Below are positions 28,395 through 33,969 of a stretch of 64,000 bases of DNA, piece after piece. The notes under the pieces were generated by a model that saw only the letters and a list, made by a program, of their open reading frames with translations, was not told the DNA's origin and did no database searches. Numbering within the stretch: position 1 is the stretch's first letter; every line of letters starts with the position of its first letter. Source of the stretch: Gordonia jacobaea (GTDB taxonomy: Bacteria; Actinomycetota; Actinomycetes; Mycobacteriales; Mycobacteriaceae); contig NZ_LDTZ01000020.1 of assembly GCF_001186365.1 (NCBI RefSeq), forward strand, positions 62,001-126,000, in the 5' to 3' direction. The translations under genes and the position numbers were made by a program.

Positions 28395-31300
28395 CTAGTT
28401 GGTCGCCTTCGCCTCCACGGCGGCCAGACGCTTCGTCAGGTCGGCGCCGATCTTGGCGATGTACGGCTCGTCGACGATCGACAGGTGATCGCCGCCGATA
28501 TGGATGATCTCCAGGTCGTCGACGACCTCGCCCCACCGACCATCCTCGTCGATCTCCGCCCACTGGGGCTCGAGTTCGATTGCGCCGTCGTGCATCTTGT
28601 CGGCGCGGTAGAGGATCACCTTGCCGCTATAGGGCTGCGGCGCGATGTTGGTCAGCGCGCGGTTGTCGACAAACGACGTCCGCTGATGCTCGATGATGCC
28701 GCCGGGGATCTTGGTGCCAGACATCGAGACCATCTCCATGATGATCGCGAACTGGCCCTCGTCGTCGGCGTCGACGAGTCGGTCCATCGGGATCGGGACG
28801 TCGGGGTCGAGATCGTAGTTGCGGATCGCGAAGTCTTTCCAGCGTTCGAGCCGTGCCCGCTTGTTCTCGGGGGTGTCGGGCACATCGTGGCGCGGTCGGA
28901 CCACGTCGATCAGTCCGACGAACGCGACTTCTTCGCCCTCGTCACGCAAGACCTTGGCGCAGCCGTACGCGAGCGCGCCGCCGAGCGACCACCCGATCAG
29001 CACATACGGGCCGTGCGGTTGGACCTCACGCAACCGAGGCAGGTACTGCGCGACCCGTTCCTCGATGGTGCCCTCGACGCGGTCGAAACCGATCACCGGC
29101 TGATCGTCGGGAAGCCGCTTGAGCAGTGCCTCGTACGCCGACGTGTTACCGCCCGCGGGGTGGAACAGCAAGGCGGGCACCGGATCTCCCGCGGTGGGGT
29201 CGTACGACTTCTTACCGCTCGGCACCAGGCGCAGGTAGCGGATGAAGCCGTCGGTGTCGGCCGCGGCGTCGAGGAACTTGCGGACGTAGTCCGACATCTC
29301 CTCGATCGTCTCCGAATCGAGAATGTCCTCGACATCGATGTCGCCACCGGTGCGCTCGTTGAGCTTGTCGGTCAGCTTCTGTGCGACGTCCTCTTCGAGC
29401 ACGGGCAGCTTGTTGAAGATGCCCCCGGCCGACTTGCCCGTGATGACCGCGTACACGCCGAACGTCAAGCGCTCTGCGGCATCTCGCGGCGGAACGTCGG
29501 AACCCGCCGCCTCTGCGACGGCCTGCTGGCTGGTGAGGTCCGGCGCAGGGGCCGCGACCTCAGCGGCCTTGGCCGGCGCGGCGGTCTCCACCCGCTGATC
29601 GAGCTCTTCTCGCTGATCGACCTCCGACCGCTGATCGAGCTCTTCTCGCTGATCGAGCTTGTCGAGATCACCCCGCTGATCGGCGGTCTCCCGCTGATCG
29701 AGCTTGTCGAGATCATCCTTCGCGAGTTGCTCGTCGATGTATGAGTTGAGCGCTGCGGTGTCGAGTTCACCTTCGCCGGCGGCCTTGCCTGCGAGGTCGT
29801 CGAGTTGGTCGCGGTGGGTGACCGCGAACGCGACGAACTTCTCGACGTCGGACAGGTTTGCCTGACGCATCGCCTGCAGTTGCAGTTGCGGAATGTCGAA
29901 TTCGTACTCGACACGGTTCTTGATGCGCACCGCCATGAGTGAGTCGAGTCCGAGTTCGATCAGCGGGATCTCGCGCGGTAGATCCTCGGGGTCGTAGCCC
30001 ATCGACTCACCGACGATGATCGCGAGTCGATCACCAACGGACTCACCCGATTCCGGGTCCCACTTGTTGCCGATGTCGTCGACGACCTCGTCCTCGACCG
30101 TCAGCGACGTGTCGGTGTAGCCGACCTTCGCCGGGTCTATGGCACCGTCTGCGCGCTCGGCAGCGCCGTCGGCAGGTTCCGCGCTGCCGCCGCCAGCTTC
30201 TGTGGTGCCCGTGACGACCGCCTCGAACAGGAGGTGGAAGTTCTTGTCCCGCTTGGTGTGCACCGTCACCGACGCACCGCCAGGATGCGGACTCAGTGTG
30301 GTGGTCAACGAGCCGGTCTTCGGGAACTCGCCGTGCGTAGCTGCAGCGCCGACGCGCGCGTCGTCGAATACCTCTGCGGCCGCGGCACGAACCAACTCAC
30401 GCGGATCGGTCACCGCAGCAGCATTGACCTCCCACGCGTGGCGGCCATCGGGAAGCGCGACGTGCGAACCGGGAATCCGCCCTGCCGTACCACCACTGGA
30501 GATCTGCGCGGTGAGCCAGAATGGCTTGCGGTCGAAACGGGTTCGCGGGATGTCGGCGTAATCGCCTGTGCCGAACAGTGATCCGACGTCGACGGGATGT
30601 CCGTGGACGTACAGCTTCATCAGCGCGTTGACGACACCGAAGCTCTCGTCCTCCTTGCGGCGCAGCGTCTCGATCAGCTCGGCGTCGTGCAAGCCTGCCG
30701 AAAAGGTCACTGCGGCAACGGAGATCAGCACCGCCGGGTTCGGCGAGAGCTCGAGGAAGGTCCGGTGGCCGTTCTCGACCGACTTCGAGATCGCCTGGCT
30801 GAACCACACGCTGTGGCGCAGGCCCTTGAGGAAGTAGTCGATGGTGTGCACGGGCTCGTGTCCAGCGCGGTAGAAGGCCTCGCGATCGACCGAACTGTAG
30901 AAGCCGGTTTCGAGGCGCTTCGGCTCGATTCCGGTGAGCTCGTAAGACAATTCGCCGAGCAACGGGTCCATCTGCGACGTGTGGCTCGCACCCTTGGTCT
31001 GCAGTTTGCGACCCAACTTGCCCTCGGCCTCGGCGCGCGCGACGATCGCGTCGACCTGAGGCTCGGGTCCACCGATGACGGTGTGCGTCGGTGCCGCGTA
31101 GACGCAGATCTCGAGGTCGGGGAAGTCGACGAGGACGTCATTGATGTCGTCCGCGCTGTACTCGACGAGCGCCATCAGGCGGATGTCGTCGCCGGAGAGC
31201 GTCGCCTCGCCCTCGCCCATGAGCCGCGAGCGCTGGCAGATGACACGTGTGGCGTCTTCGAGCGAGAGCCCCCCACTGATGTACGCGGCCGACGCCTCGC

Positions 31301-33809
31301 CCATCGAATGCGGCACCAGCACACCGGGTTCGGCGCCGTGGTGACGCAGGAGGTCGGCAAGGGCAACCTGGATCGTGTAGATACCGACCTGGGCGGTCTC
31401 GATGCCGTAGGTCTGCTCGTCGTCGACGAACATCTCCGCGATGGAGTATCCGAGTTCGTTCTGCACGTACTCGTCGACGCGGTCGACGTACTTCTTGAAG
31501 ATCGGATTCTCGAGGTAGAGCTGCTTGGCCATCTTGCGATGCTGCGAGCCGAAGCCCGAGAGCAGCCAGACCGCCGTTGCGGCGTCGGGCGAATCAGCCG
31601 AGTACACAAGAGGATTGGCTTTGCCCTCCGCGACGGCGCGCACACCCTTGACTGCGTCTTCGTGGGTGCGGGCCATGACGACCGACCGCGAACGACCGTG
31701 GTTGCGGTGCGCGAGCGCGCGTCCGATGTCGGCGAGGGGCGTCGACGCACCCTCGTCGGACTCGAGCCACTCGAGCAGGTCGGCGGCAGCCTTACGACGC
31801 CGCGACGGCAGGAATCCCGAAAGCACCAGCGGCACAACCGATCCCTCGACGGCGCACGGGGCAAAGCCGTCGGCGGGGTCGGCTTCGACGACCTCGGCGG
31901 GCGCGTCGTCCTTCTTCGCCTGCGCGGCCAGGACGGCGCGCTCGGCGTCGGTGAGGAAGTCCTCGTCGTCATCGTCGGTGGTTTCGACAAGCTCAACCAG
32001 CGAGGACGGCTCAACCAGCGGGGACGGCTCAACCAACGAGGAGGACTCAGCGTCTCCGGTGGTCGGGGTGTCTCCGCTGGTCGAGCTTGTCGAGACCACG
32101 CCCGACAGATCACTCGGCAGCGCCTCACGCACGACGACGTGCGCGTTGGTGCCACCGAAGCCGAAGCCCGACACACCCGCGACAGCATGGCCCGAGTAGC
32201 GCGGCCAGTCCGTCGGCTCCTCGACCACCTTGAGGTGTCCGGCGTCGAACTGAATGTAGGGGTTGGGGCCGGAGTAGTTGAGCGATGCAGGCAGCTTGTT
32301 GTGCTGCATAGCGAGAACCACCTTGGCGAGCGCACCTGCGCCCGCGGCGGACTCCATATGCCCGAAGTTCGTCTTGGCGGAACCGAGGAGTGCAGGCGCG
32401 TCGGCCTGTCGACCGCGCCCGACGACGCGCCCGAGGGCGTCGGCTTCGATGGGATCGCCGAGCACCGTGCCGGTTCCGTGCGCTTCGATGTAGTCGACGC
32501 CGCGCGGATCGACAGCGGCGTCGGTGTACGCCGAGCGCAGCACCTCGACCTGGGCCTCGGGATTCGGAGCGGGCAGGCCGTTGGAGCGGCCGTCGGAGTT
32601 GACCGCCGAACCCGCGACAACTGCGAGCACGGTGTCGCCGTCGCGTCGGGCGTCGGCGATGCGCTTGAGTACGAACAGTCCGCCACCCTCGGCGCGGATC
32701 ATGCCGTCGGCGTCGGCCGAGAACGCCTTGATGTGGCCGTCCTTGGCCTGCGCGCCGATGCTGTCGAAGCCGAGCGTCGCCGCGGGCGTGATGATCATGT
32801 TGACGCCACCGGCGAGCGCGACGTCGGATTCACCCGAGCGCAGGCTGCGTACGGCCTGATGCACGGCGACCAACGACGACGAGCACGCGGTGTCCATCGC
32901 GACCGACGGACCGTGGAAGTCGAAGAAGTAGGAGACGCGGTTGGCGACGATCGACGTCGACGTTCCGGTCAGCGCGTAGGCGGCGGTGTCGTGAGCGCCG
33001 TCGTCGAGGCCCATGGCCGCGAGAAGCTGGTAGTCGTTGGTCGACGTGCCGATGAAGACACCGACCGGCGCGCCCTTGAGGTCGCTGGCCGGAATGTGGG
33101 CGTCTTCGAGTGCCTCCCATGCCAGTTCGAGTGCGAGGCGCTGCTGCGGGTCGACCATCTCGACCTCGCGCGGACTCATCTGGAAGAAGTCGGCGTCGAA
33201 GCTCTTGACGTCGTCGAGGTAGCCGCCCTTGACGTTGGACTCGTCGATCACCTTCGCGAGGCGCGGGTCGGATTTGAACTCGGCCCAGCGGTCGTCGGGA
33301 AGGTCGGAGATGCCGTCGCGGCCGGAGATCAGGGCTTCCCAGGTGGAGTCAGGGGTCTGCCCGGCCTTGGGGAAGCGTGTCGAGAGGCCGACGATCGCGA
33401 TGTCGTCGTCGGCGTTGCGCTCGCGAATCCAGAAGGTCTCGGCGTCGAGGTCGAGGCCCTCGTCGGGGTCGCCTTCGATGATGCGCTTGGCCAGCATCGC
33501 GATGGTGGGGTGGTTGTAGGCGACCGTCGCGGTCAGTACGACGCCGGTCTTGTCCTCGATGTCGGCGGCAAGCGCCACCGCATCGCGCGACGACAGGCCG
33601 AACTCCTCCATCGGACGGTCGTCGGAGATCTGCTCCGCGGAGATTCCGGTCGACGTCGCGACCCACTCCCGCAGCCAGTCGCGCAGTTCGGAAACCGTCA
33701 GCCCACCGGCGGTCTCGCCGTCGGTGCTCTCGCTGTTGACGCTGTCGGTGTCGGGGCTGTCGGCGTCGGCCGCAGGCTCGATGTTCGGCTCGTTGTTCAG
33801 TTCAGACAT
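28395..33809 (-). CDS. pks13: Mycolate condensing polyketide synthase Pks13
   Basis: Type I polyketide synthase that condenses meromycoloyl-AMP from FadD32 with a carboxylated acyl-CoA to give alpha-alkyl beta-keto trehalose precursors of mycolic acids. 1804 residues against about 1733 in M. tuberculosis. Domains: N-terminal acyl carrier (Ser74 in GLSSRD), ketosynthase about 135-560 (Cys309 in DTACSSS, His444 in EAHGTG, His484 in NFGH), acyltransferase about 745-1050 (Ser835 in PHSMGE), C-terminal acyl carrier (Ser1290 in GLDSLMAV), thioesterase about 1500-1800 (Ser1608 in GWSLGG). Most of the extra length comes from repeat elements in two linkers, residues about 571-611 and 1366-1408. Confidence 0.96.
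29592..29716. repeat. pks13: DQR-coding repeat array in the Pks13 ACP-thioesterase linker
   Basis: CGCTGATCGA or a close variant occurs six times in about 125 bases, twice extended to CGCTGATCGAGCTTGTCGAG (ending near 29667 and 29711). On the coding strand it reads LDKLDQR and related units, with DQR six times. It is the same family as the other repeats here, diverged from GGTC to GATC. It lies between the second acyl carrier and the thioesterase. Confidence 0.8.
31977..32100. repeat. pks13: Repeat element with terminal inverted repeats in the Pks13 KS-AT linker
   Basis: The left arm 31977-32002 and right arm 32075-32100 are inverted copies of 26 bases, agreeing at 23, both built on TCTCGACAAGCTCGACCAGC. 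Two further partial units (GGCTCAACCAGCG type) follow the left arm. On the coding strand it reads [12 protein letters not shown] and [10 protein letters not shown]. The insertion lies after the ketosynthase and before the acyltransferase domain and keeps the frame. Confidence 0.85.
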
Positions 33810-33863: not shown

Positions 33864-33969
33864 GTGGTCTCGACAAGCTCGACCAGCGGGGCGGGGGCTC
33901 GACCAGCGGCGGGCACTCGACCAGCGGGTGGTCTCGACAAGCTCGACCAGCGGTGGCCGCTCGACCACC
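33864..33969. repeat. Repeat array between pks13 and fadD32
   Basis: Two identical 26-base copies (33864-33889 and 33928-33953) contain TCTCGACAAGCTCGACCAGC. Between them lie two shorter CTCGACCAGCGG units, and a final CGCTCGACCACC follows. All point the same way. The array fills most of the 204-base gap between the pks13 start and fadD32 stop, so the fadD32-pks13 transcript would carry it. Confidence 0.85.

Follow-up and report, generated by a model that had tools for sequence, protein, structure and literature searches.

Short palindromes shared by Pks13 linkers and the flanks of a small GIY-YIG nuclease gene in Gordonia

In the genome of Gordonia jacobaea (NCBI RefSeq assembly GCF_001186365.1), pks13 is located at positions 28395–33809 (minus strand) of a 64,000-nt stretch of contig NZ_LDTZ01000020.1, which was analyzed here as a whole (hereafter, the window). 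Its 1804-aa product is homologous to the solved Pks13 structures 9f48, 7uk4 and 8cuy, and an insert between its KS and AT domains derives from a palindrome family, GGTYGAG-n-TCGARACC. The family is present in multiple copies, its arms vary in a compensated manner, its copies within proteins keep the reading frame, its copy number varies, protein linkers are occupied by it recurrently, and a gene for a small GIY-YIG nuclease is bracketed by members of the matching subfamily. We consider it probable, with moderate confidence, that these units are non-autonomous palindromes resembling repetitive extragenic palindromic (REP) elements, which are spread by a UPF0213-type GIY-YIG nuclease whose gene lies between inverted copies of them; the cleavage, copying and mobility that this would entail we infer from the arrangement of the copies.

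Results

The Pks13 insert consists of two facing arrays

The original prediction, made from the letters alone, described a single element with terminal inverted repeats at 31977–32100, inserted in frame between KS and AT. The two ends (31977–32002 and 32075–32100) are inverted copies that match by eye at 23 of 26 positions, and two of the three differences form a compensated stem pair (C/G versus T/A). As had also been proposed, pks13 stays open through the arrays. The single element itself had to be abandoned, because the interior holds two half units and because the full units at the two ends are opposite in orientation and different in arm type. The insert is instead a minus-strand array with GGTT/AACC arms that faces a plus-strand full unit with GGTC/GACC arms. 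The minus-strand array comprises full unit B (31977–32002; 19-mer at 31980–31998), which reads LVELVETT, and two half units recognized by eye, each a left arm only and each reading LVEP (32010–32020 and 32028–32039). The plus-strand full unit A (32075–32100; 19-mer at 32079–32097) reads VVSTSSTSG.

A second in-frame array, which had been overlooked, occupies 29593–29716 (plus strand) in the ACP-TE linker. It has GATC/GATC arms, with full units at 29651–29669 and 29696–29714 and left-arm half units at about 29593–29603, 29610–29622 and 29630–29639, and it uses a reading frame other than that of the KS-AT array, giving DLDKLDQR...ELDQR. Its residues (approximately 1366–1406) sit in an unaligned gap (1355–1413) between two stretches matched to 7uk4. 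In addition, the noncoding gap between fadD32 and pks13 carries a mosaic array on the minus strand (33866–33968), composed of full units at 33866–33884 and 33930–33948 together with half units. Exact strings are shared between noncoding arrays and the linkers, in agreement with the proposed kinship of this array and the insert.

Among named sequences, the nearest Pks13 comes from G. sputi NBRC 100414. With the two array linkers excluded, the pks13 DNA of G. jacobaea is 95.0% identical to that of G. sputi (4681/4925), 88.4% to that of G. otitidis and 88.6% to that of G. aichiensis. Linker lengths nevertheless differ between G. jacobaea and G. sputi: 63 versus 46 aa for KS-AT, and 94 versus 106 aa for the stretch between ACP and TE. 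The fadD32-pks13 gap contains five full units in G. sputi, none in G. otitidis and one degenerate copy in G. aichiensis. Such differences in linker length at 95.0% identity bear out the claim that the palindrome is protein-coding and variable in copy number, whereas the mobility proposed with it is suggested rather than observed.

Anatomy of the repeat unit

The superfamily form can be written as TGGTYGAG-[2–36 nt]-TCGARACCA, that is, a left arm TGGTYGAG, a variable inner part and a right arm TCGARACCA. Units measure 19–26 nt in the short form and approximately 40–50 nt in the long form. With 16 arm combinations permitted, the arms were compensated in 131 of 132 short forms at the G. jacobaea loci (118 GGTC/GACC, 8 GGTT/AACC, 5 GATC/GATC and 1 uncompensated), a tally in which most loci had been picked via the GGTC core. 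When all forms were counted, compensated arms were observed in 240/244 units at the G. jacobaea loci, 57/61 in G. araii and 57/60 in genomes of other families. The ends are constant in G. araii, and the inner stem varies yet stays paired: stems of at least 5 bp were found in 30 of 46 distinct inner parts, which have 19 different stem starts, versus 4.5% of shuffles. In other families, 16 of 34 inner parts had such a stem, versus 6.9% of shuffles.

The arrays have a polarity. At the G. jacobaea loci, 150 free left arms versus 11 free right arms were counted at distances of up to 300 nt from full short units; with long forms counted as full units, free left and right arms numbered 66 and 7 in G. 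jacobaea, 38 and 0 in G. araii, and 37 and 16 in other families. The short unit folds with a two-base bulge (TGGT-CGA/TCG-AG-ACCA). One long form, representing a type frequent in G. effusa and G. araii, gave better folds than shuffled sequences did (z −2.75 as DNA and −3.81 as RNA), and a second G. araii long form gave z −1.62 as DNA. Inspection by eye revealed no stop codon in any frame of the short unit, and neither a GTAG nor a CGTC tag is part of it (CCGCTGGTCGAGCTTGTCGAGACCACC); GTAG is present inside some long forms of other species, where it overlaps the left arm.

Copy number differs widely among genomes

The core TCTCGACAAGCTCGACCAGC, with up to three mismatches, matched six times in the window, versus 0.03 matches expected. 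The G. jacobaea genome contains the exact core 88 times (41 forward and 47 reverse; 0 for the backwards control), so that copies elsewhere in the genome, as the original prediction anticipated, do exist. The short form GRTYTCGACARGCTCRAYC was found 214 times in G. jacobaea, 238 times in G. sputi, 11 times in G. otitidis, not at all in G. aichiensis, and 0–10 times per genome in the other 38; the backwards control matched nowhere in these 42 genomes. The expansion in G. jacobaea and G. sputi is therefore probably recent. G. aichiensis retains a degenerate copy upstream of pks13, with a local score that none of 1000 shuffled sequences reached; its kdpA loop bears a fainter trace (score reached by 6 of 1000).

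Matches with the GGTC arm were present in 51 of 396 genomes of the phylum. Outside Gordonia they mostly number 1–4 per genome and, by count, most of these look like chance; one genome of another family (G313) holds 107 copies, which is not chance-like. Matches with GGTT/TGGTT arms were present in 14 of 197 genomes of the class, with a maximum of 43 in a single genome, which belongs to family f7. Since the pattern TGGTCGAGN{2,32}TCGAGACCA also matches conserved Pks13 codons (EIFLDDEQTYAIET and similar), a single match per genome means little. The viral_contigs collection yielded no exact match of GGTCTCGACARGCTCGACCAGCG. Separately, another interspersed palindrome, AATGTGTGTCGAACGTAAAGATGTGGG...CACATCTTCACAAACGACACACATCTACC, occurs with its variants among the arrays of genome G000, in three copies at two loci (L082, about 2150–2480, and L086, about 2380–2480) on contigs C2 and C4.

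Pks13 linkers are occupied repeatedly across Gordonia

At 39 Gordonia loci, 30 compensated full elements fell within the 14.5 kb of the three inter-domain linkers, versus 5 in the remaining 195 kb of pks13 sequence and 14 in the flanking DNA (230 kb); the five are all one conserved codon stretch and not elements. Codon-shuffled linkers contained a mean of 0.05 and a maximum of 1 element in 200 rounds. At least one linker element was found in 15 of the 39 pks13 genes (KS-AT, 6; AT-ACP, 2; ACP-TE, 13). On a quick core-domain tree of 41 rows, from which two of the 39 loci (L039 and L048) are absent, these distributions require a minimum of 5, 2 and 8 changes, respectively. The KS-AT linker is filled (LVEPVET) in G. 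amicalis and in G. lacunae, where the copy is not arm-compensated, and empty in G. alkanivorans, G. namibiensis, G. paraffinivorans and ‘Campus’, which belong to the same group. Other genera do not conserve this linker, as would be expected if the original prediction of an inserted repeat were right.

In Gordonia sp. OPL2 and in ABSL11-1, a second and unrelated family (CCCTGAGGAGCGAGC...) lies in frame within the KS-AT linker. The second palindrome family (CCCTGAGGAGCGAGCTTGCGAGCGTCACGAAGGG), in frame in this linker of two Gordonia (L019 and L026), also brackets two sister GIY-YIG genes separate from the others (L235 and L241).

Two further observations concern the ACP-TE linker. In G. malaquae (L064), it reads LSERSESKGRN from GAGCGCAGCGAGTCGAAGGGTCGAAACC, perhaps a further palindrome family. 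At loci L028 and L025, it contains left-arm arrays (for example, VEPSPVVEPSPVVERSRD) in which the pattern used detected no intact full unit, as if these were old insertions losing their repeat identity.

A small GIY-YIG nuclease gene is bracketed by inverted copies of the repeat

At array cluster L087, a 96-aa GIY-YIG gene lies between two oppositely oriented arrays. A GIY-YIG search of 22 genomes, mostly picked for holding the repeat, provided 30 loci for examination, namely 23 short single-domain genes and 7 long frames, which were labelled UvrC-like by frame length alone; at least one further short match (G608 C6) lies outside these 30. Compensated elements were found within 600 bp of 20 of the 23 short genes (on both sides of 17), versus none of the 7 long frames (p=5.9e-5). 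The nearest upstream element was in the plus orientation in 16 of 17 short genes and the nearest downstream element in the minus orientation in 19 of 20, mostly at a distance of 58–142 bp from the matched GIY-YIG domain. Inverted repeats of at least 12 nt bridged the gene in 23/23 short and 0/7 long cases, and were present in 208 of 4000 windows drawn at random from the Pks13 loci.

The repeats around the nuclease gene and those within Pks13 correspond in type. When subfamilies were defined by the first two and last two bases of the inner part, the subfamily of the Pks13 linker was also present around the GIY-YIG gene in 8 of 9 genomes. Without G. sputi, the match was 7/8 against a permuted mean of 2.25, and 14 of 20000 permutations reached 7. 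The short gene of G. amicalis is flanked by GGCTGAG...AAGCC, which is readable as another compensated arm. That of G. lacunae and one of those of OPL2 are flanked by the CCCTGAGGAGC family, which is found in the Pks13 linker of OPL2 as well. These two CCCTGAGGAGC-flanked nucleases (L235 and L241) are sisters with support of 98/99, the only pair used from a poorly resolved tree that covered 24 of 29 wanted proteins and in which the bootstrap values had not settled. G. aichiensis, which has 0 exact copies of the repeat, gave no short GIY-YIG match.

The G. jacobaea nuclease belongs to UPF0213, as indicated by its matches to 1zg2 (E 2.4e-17) and 1ywl, both of which are named hypothetical in the PDB listing. 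Two of three GIY-YIG proteins scanned matched a group I intron endonuclease model weakly, far below the cut-off. Among 36 plasmid GIY-YIG matches, six proteobacterial relatives were inspected, and bridging inverted repeats were found in two, on a Sphingomonas parapaucimobilis plasmid (L247; CTGAGCGAAGTCGAAG) and in Methylobacterium bullatum (L246; GGCACCTCAGGATGAGG), and not at L248–L251. The genes at L247 and L246 are UPF0213-like and alphaproteobacterial. No confirmed relative of the G. jacobaea protein was found in viral_contigs.

The transposase domain Y1_Tnp, which covers IS200 and REP-associated tyrosine transposases (RAYTs), was detected in 0/59 Gordonia genomes. In a separate search it was detected in 0/7 genomes (3 non-Gordonia and 4 Gordonia probably within the 59), while the control matched 5 of 14 genomes. 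A RAYT-driven REP system was rejected on the basis of these searches.

Two other GIY-YIG genes deserve mention. In an actinomycete of another family (L217; G608 C1:177698–177916 and downstream), a GIY-YIG frame is extended by in-frame repeats (GVSTSSTTEDGVSTSSTT), the short form of which is the same as that of G. jacobaea. In Gordonia sp. ABSL49_1 (L240), the C-terminal half of a bracketed GIY-YIG protein diverges (EKRPELVAGQ...), as if degraded.

Genomic placement and arrays in other proteins

Placement was assessed in 40 stretches (approximately 185 kb) around copies in the G. jacobaea genome. According to a simple codon-usage caller, 37 of 48 clusters lie outside open reading frames (ORFs) and 11 overlap one. 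Of the gaps with arrays, 16 of 35 were convergent, versus 7 of 88 gaps lacking them (p=5.6e-6; our own heuristic gene caller), and at least four clusters start 2–5 nt past a stop codon. A search of six loci against Rfam matched no family except a tRNA, and the repeat was accordingly rejected as a known RNA family.

Arrays within proteins were accepted for nine of the 11 overlapping clusters, L076 and L102 being excluded for doubtful ORF ends; several are terminal, where the choice of start or stop is less sure. Each of the nine proteins has a Pfam domain. They are a POR/DUF6537 protein (which we take to be an indolepyruvate ferredoxin oxidoreductase), an EIIA-HPr-EI fusion with the array between HPr and EI, KdpA, an acyltransferase-SGNH protein, an AMP-binding protein (presumably MenE), a zincin-like peptidase, a TetR regulator, a DUF1365 protein and a GMC-type oxidoreductase. 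The coding copies use at least four reading frames, LVELVET among them, and both strands. The spacing of arm motifs was a multiple of three in 39/41 coding versus 63/140 noncoding cases (Fisher p=1.5e-9), in hand-picked intervals (11 coding and 30 noncoding, with several small clusters omitted) and with spacings within an array not independent of one another.

Two of these proteins allow a comparison among species. At the oxidoreductase site, 91 aa in G. jacobaea and 97 aa in G. sputi correspond to 37 aa in 24 of 30 relatives, to 50 aa in G. otitidis, which apparently has one half unit, and to 51 aa in G. aichiensis; three paralogue-like proteins (L173–L175) have 37, 39 and 47 aa. The KdpA loop (profile position about 505) measures 119 aa in G. 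jacobaea versus 31–33 aa in seven species. It contains one full unit plus half units in G. otitidis and an in-frame long form in G. polyisoprenivorans, which resembles the long forms around the GIY-YIG gene of that species. Most other KdpA loops of 52–83 aa contain no full element. In G. sputi NBRC 100414 (L126 and L142), kdpA matches two contigs and is split near the array, and a contig ends close to the GIY-YIG gene; arrays therefore appear to break the assembly.

Discussion

A probable course of events is as follows. Units would insert into the gaps between genes and also into the linkers, loops and termini of proteins, wherever these tolerate them and the frame is kept. They would then expand locally into polar arrays, with left-arm half units beside full units. 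The small UPF0213-type GIY-YIG nuclease would recognize and cut the palindrome, or a similar end, and repair synthesis or template switching would copy units elsewhere and lengthen the arrays, while proteins would retain only arrays that keep the frame. The basis for spread is presence and absence, copy number and repeated occupancy, from which mobility itself is deduced. A broader proposition, on which we are evenly divided, is that UPF0213-type GIY-YIG nucleases, and not RAYTs, mobilize a broad class of bacterial palindromes, each gene lying between inverted copies of its own family and the families repeatedly colonizing gaps and protein linkers, including those of Pks13. At least two candidate nuclease–repeat pairs can be seen in Gordonia (GGTYGAG and CCCTGAGGAGC, both present in frame in Pks13 linkers), and a third is possible in Sphingomonas (CTGAGCGAAGTCGAAG).

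Several results weigh against a nuclease-driven spread. The 22 genomes were chosen largely because they hold the repeat, and G. jacobaea and G. sputi are near duplicates. The GGTYGAG form is absent around the short gene in G. amicalis, G. lacunae and one OPL2 gene. G. amicalis, which was left out of the subfamily test, would miss, and the match would then be 8/10, or 7/9 without G. sputi. Both G. rhizosphera (21 copies) and G107 (7 and 1 copies) hold the repeat, and no short GIY-YIG gene was found in them. The short-form hairpin is weak (z −0.43 to −1.57 as DNA, −0.20 and −0.73 as RNA), as is the fold of the 44-nt long form of G. jacobaea with its flanks (z +0.50 as DNA, −0.71 as RNA). Inner stems at the G. 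jacobaea loci did not exceed shuffles (4/106 versus 4.8%), although many of these inner parts are half-plus-full composites. Compensated arms could be explained by template-switch correction without any recognizing protein. Finally, neither a target-site duplication nor an insertion or excision was seen; for the duplication, none was noticed by eye in the KS-AT and oxidoreductase comparisons, and no systematic search was made.

The main rival, which we consider unlikely, is that slippage and template switching alone spread REP-like repeats that proteins tolerate, the GIY-YIG genes being passengers or having inserted into arrays. The rapid change of arrays between near-identical genomes fits this explanation, as does the prevalence of left arms among half units (150 versus 11), which hairpin-stalled slippage might yield. 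The failure to find a Y1 transposase and the existence of repeat-bearing genomes without a flanked GIY-YIG gene are also in its favor. However, slippage would account for local growth and not for some 200 dispersed copies, nor for brackets of regular orientation (16/17 and 19/20) that recur in other families of the class, nor for the agreement of bracket and Pks13-linker subfamilies in 8 of the 9 genomes tested.

It is improbable, in our estimation, that the repeats serve at gene ends as terminators or functional RNAs, with the coding copies as spill-over. The preference for convergent gaps and the clusters that begin just after stop codons would suit such a role, but the same placement is reported for REPs generally (PMC3733652). 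The Rfam result, the patchy presence among Gordonia, and the weak folding of both the short form and the G. jacobaea long form speak against it as well.

GIY-YIG enzymes include homing nucleases, and the GIY-YIG gene might be the sole selfish gene, cutting repeat-free sites, with the repeats as recognition or protection marks amplified later. The weak matches of two of the three scanned proteins to the group I intron endonuclease model point in this direction. We nevertheless hold this to be very improbable, because the short gene numbers at most three per genome searched, and the repeat tens to hundreds in the richer genomes. Lastly, convergence of ordinary low-complexity linkers rich in E, P, S and T, to which the variation of Gordonia linkers in sequence and length might have pointed, is already contradicted by the exact strings shared with noncoding arrays, by the use of both strands and of several frames, and by the codon shuffles (at most 1 element versus 30 observed).

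The nuclease-spread palindromes that we favor can be compared with known systems. REPs, together with bacterial interspersed mosaic elements and REPINs associated with RAYTs, are likewise short, high-copy palindromes with clusters, convergent or 3′-end placement and occasional in-frame copies (PMC3733652, PMC3116915), and in both cases a nuclease or transposase gene is flanked by the repeat. Gordonia differs in that no Y1/RAYT gene was found (0/59) and in that the flanked gene encodes a GIY-YIG nuclease. Unlike the GTAG and CGTC superfamilies of REPs, the Gordonia repeat conserves two arms and not a tag, and its arrays are polar, with left-arm half units. For CGTC REPs, no transposase had been identified according to PMC3733652. 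The palindromic elements of Rickettsia (RPEs) and Wolbachia also occur in frame in unrelated conserved proteins (PMC2229807, PMC3733652), so the likeness in kind noted by the original prediction is well founded; RPEs measure 105–146 bp (PMC2229807), whereas the Gordonia units are 19–50 nt long, form arrays, occur in actinomycetes and have a candidate partner nuclease. Correia elements, ERIC/RU and other miniature inverted-repeat transposable elements are similar in being non-autonomous, in consisting of inverted-repeat DNA and in having open frames that are fused to genes (PMC2229807); the Gordonia units are far shorter, and no parental transposase was identified. The single-domain UPF0213 proteins 1zg2 and 1ywl share the sequence family of the bracketed nuclease, and the link of these hypothetical proteins to flanking repeats is new.

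Intragenic REPs and RPEs as such are already known (PMC3733652, PMC2229807, PMC6649704, PMC3116915, PMC2267715). Five short-form strings were absent from the 5.39 million papers searched, a set from which subscription papers are mostly missing, so novelty is provisional. Among the matches listed, six long-form strings retrieved only unrelated titles, no title or beginning of an abstract on REPs in connection with Actinobacteria, Gordonia, Pks13 or GIY-YIG described the present system, and none combined ‘GIY-YIG’ with ‘repetitive extragenic’.

The bracketing joins REP-like repeats for which no transposase is known to UPF0213 proteins that have a structure but a hypothetical name, and both are therefore directly testable. 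The arrays seem to disrupt assemblies and may vary fast enough to type strains. Pks13, KdpA and the oxidoreductase offer natural experiments on how linkers and loops tolerate a foreign peptide and on how intergenic DNA becomes protein.

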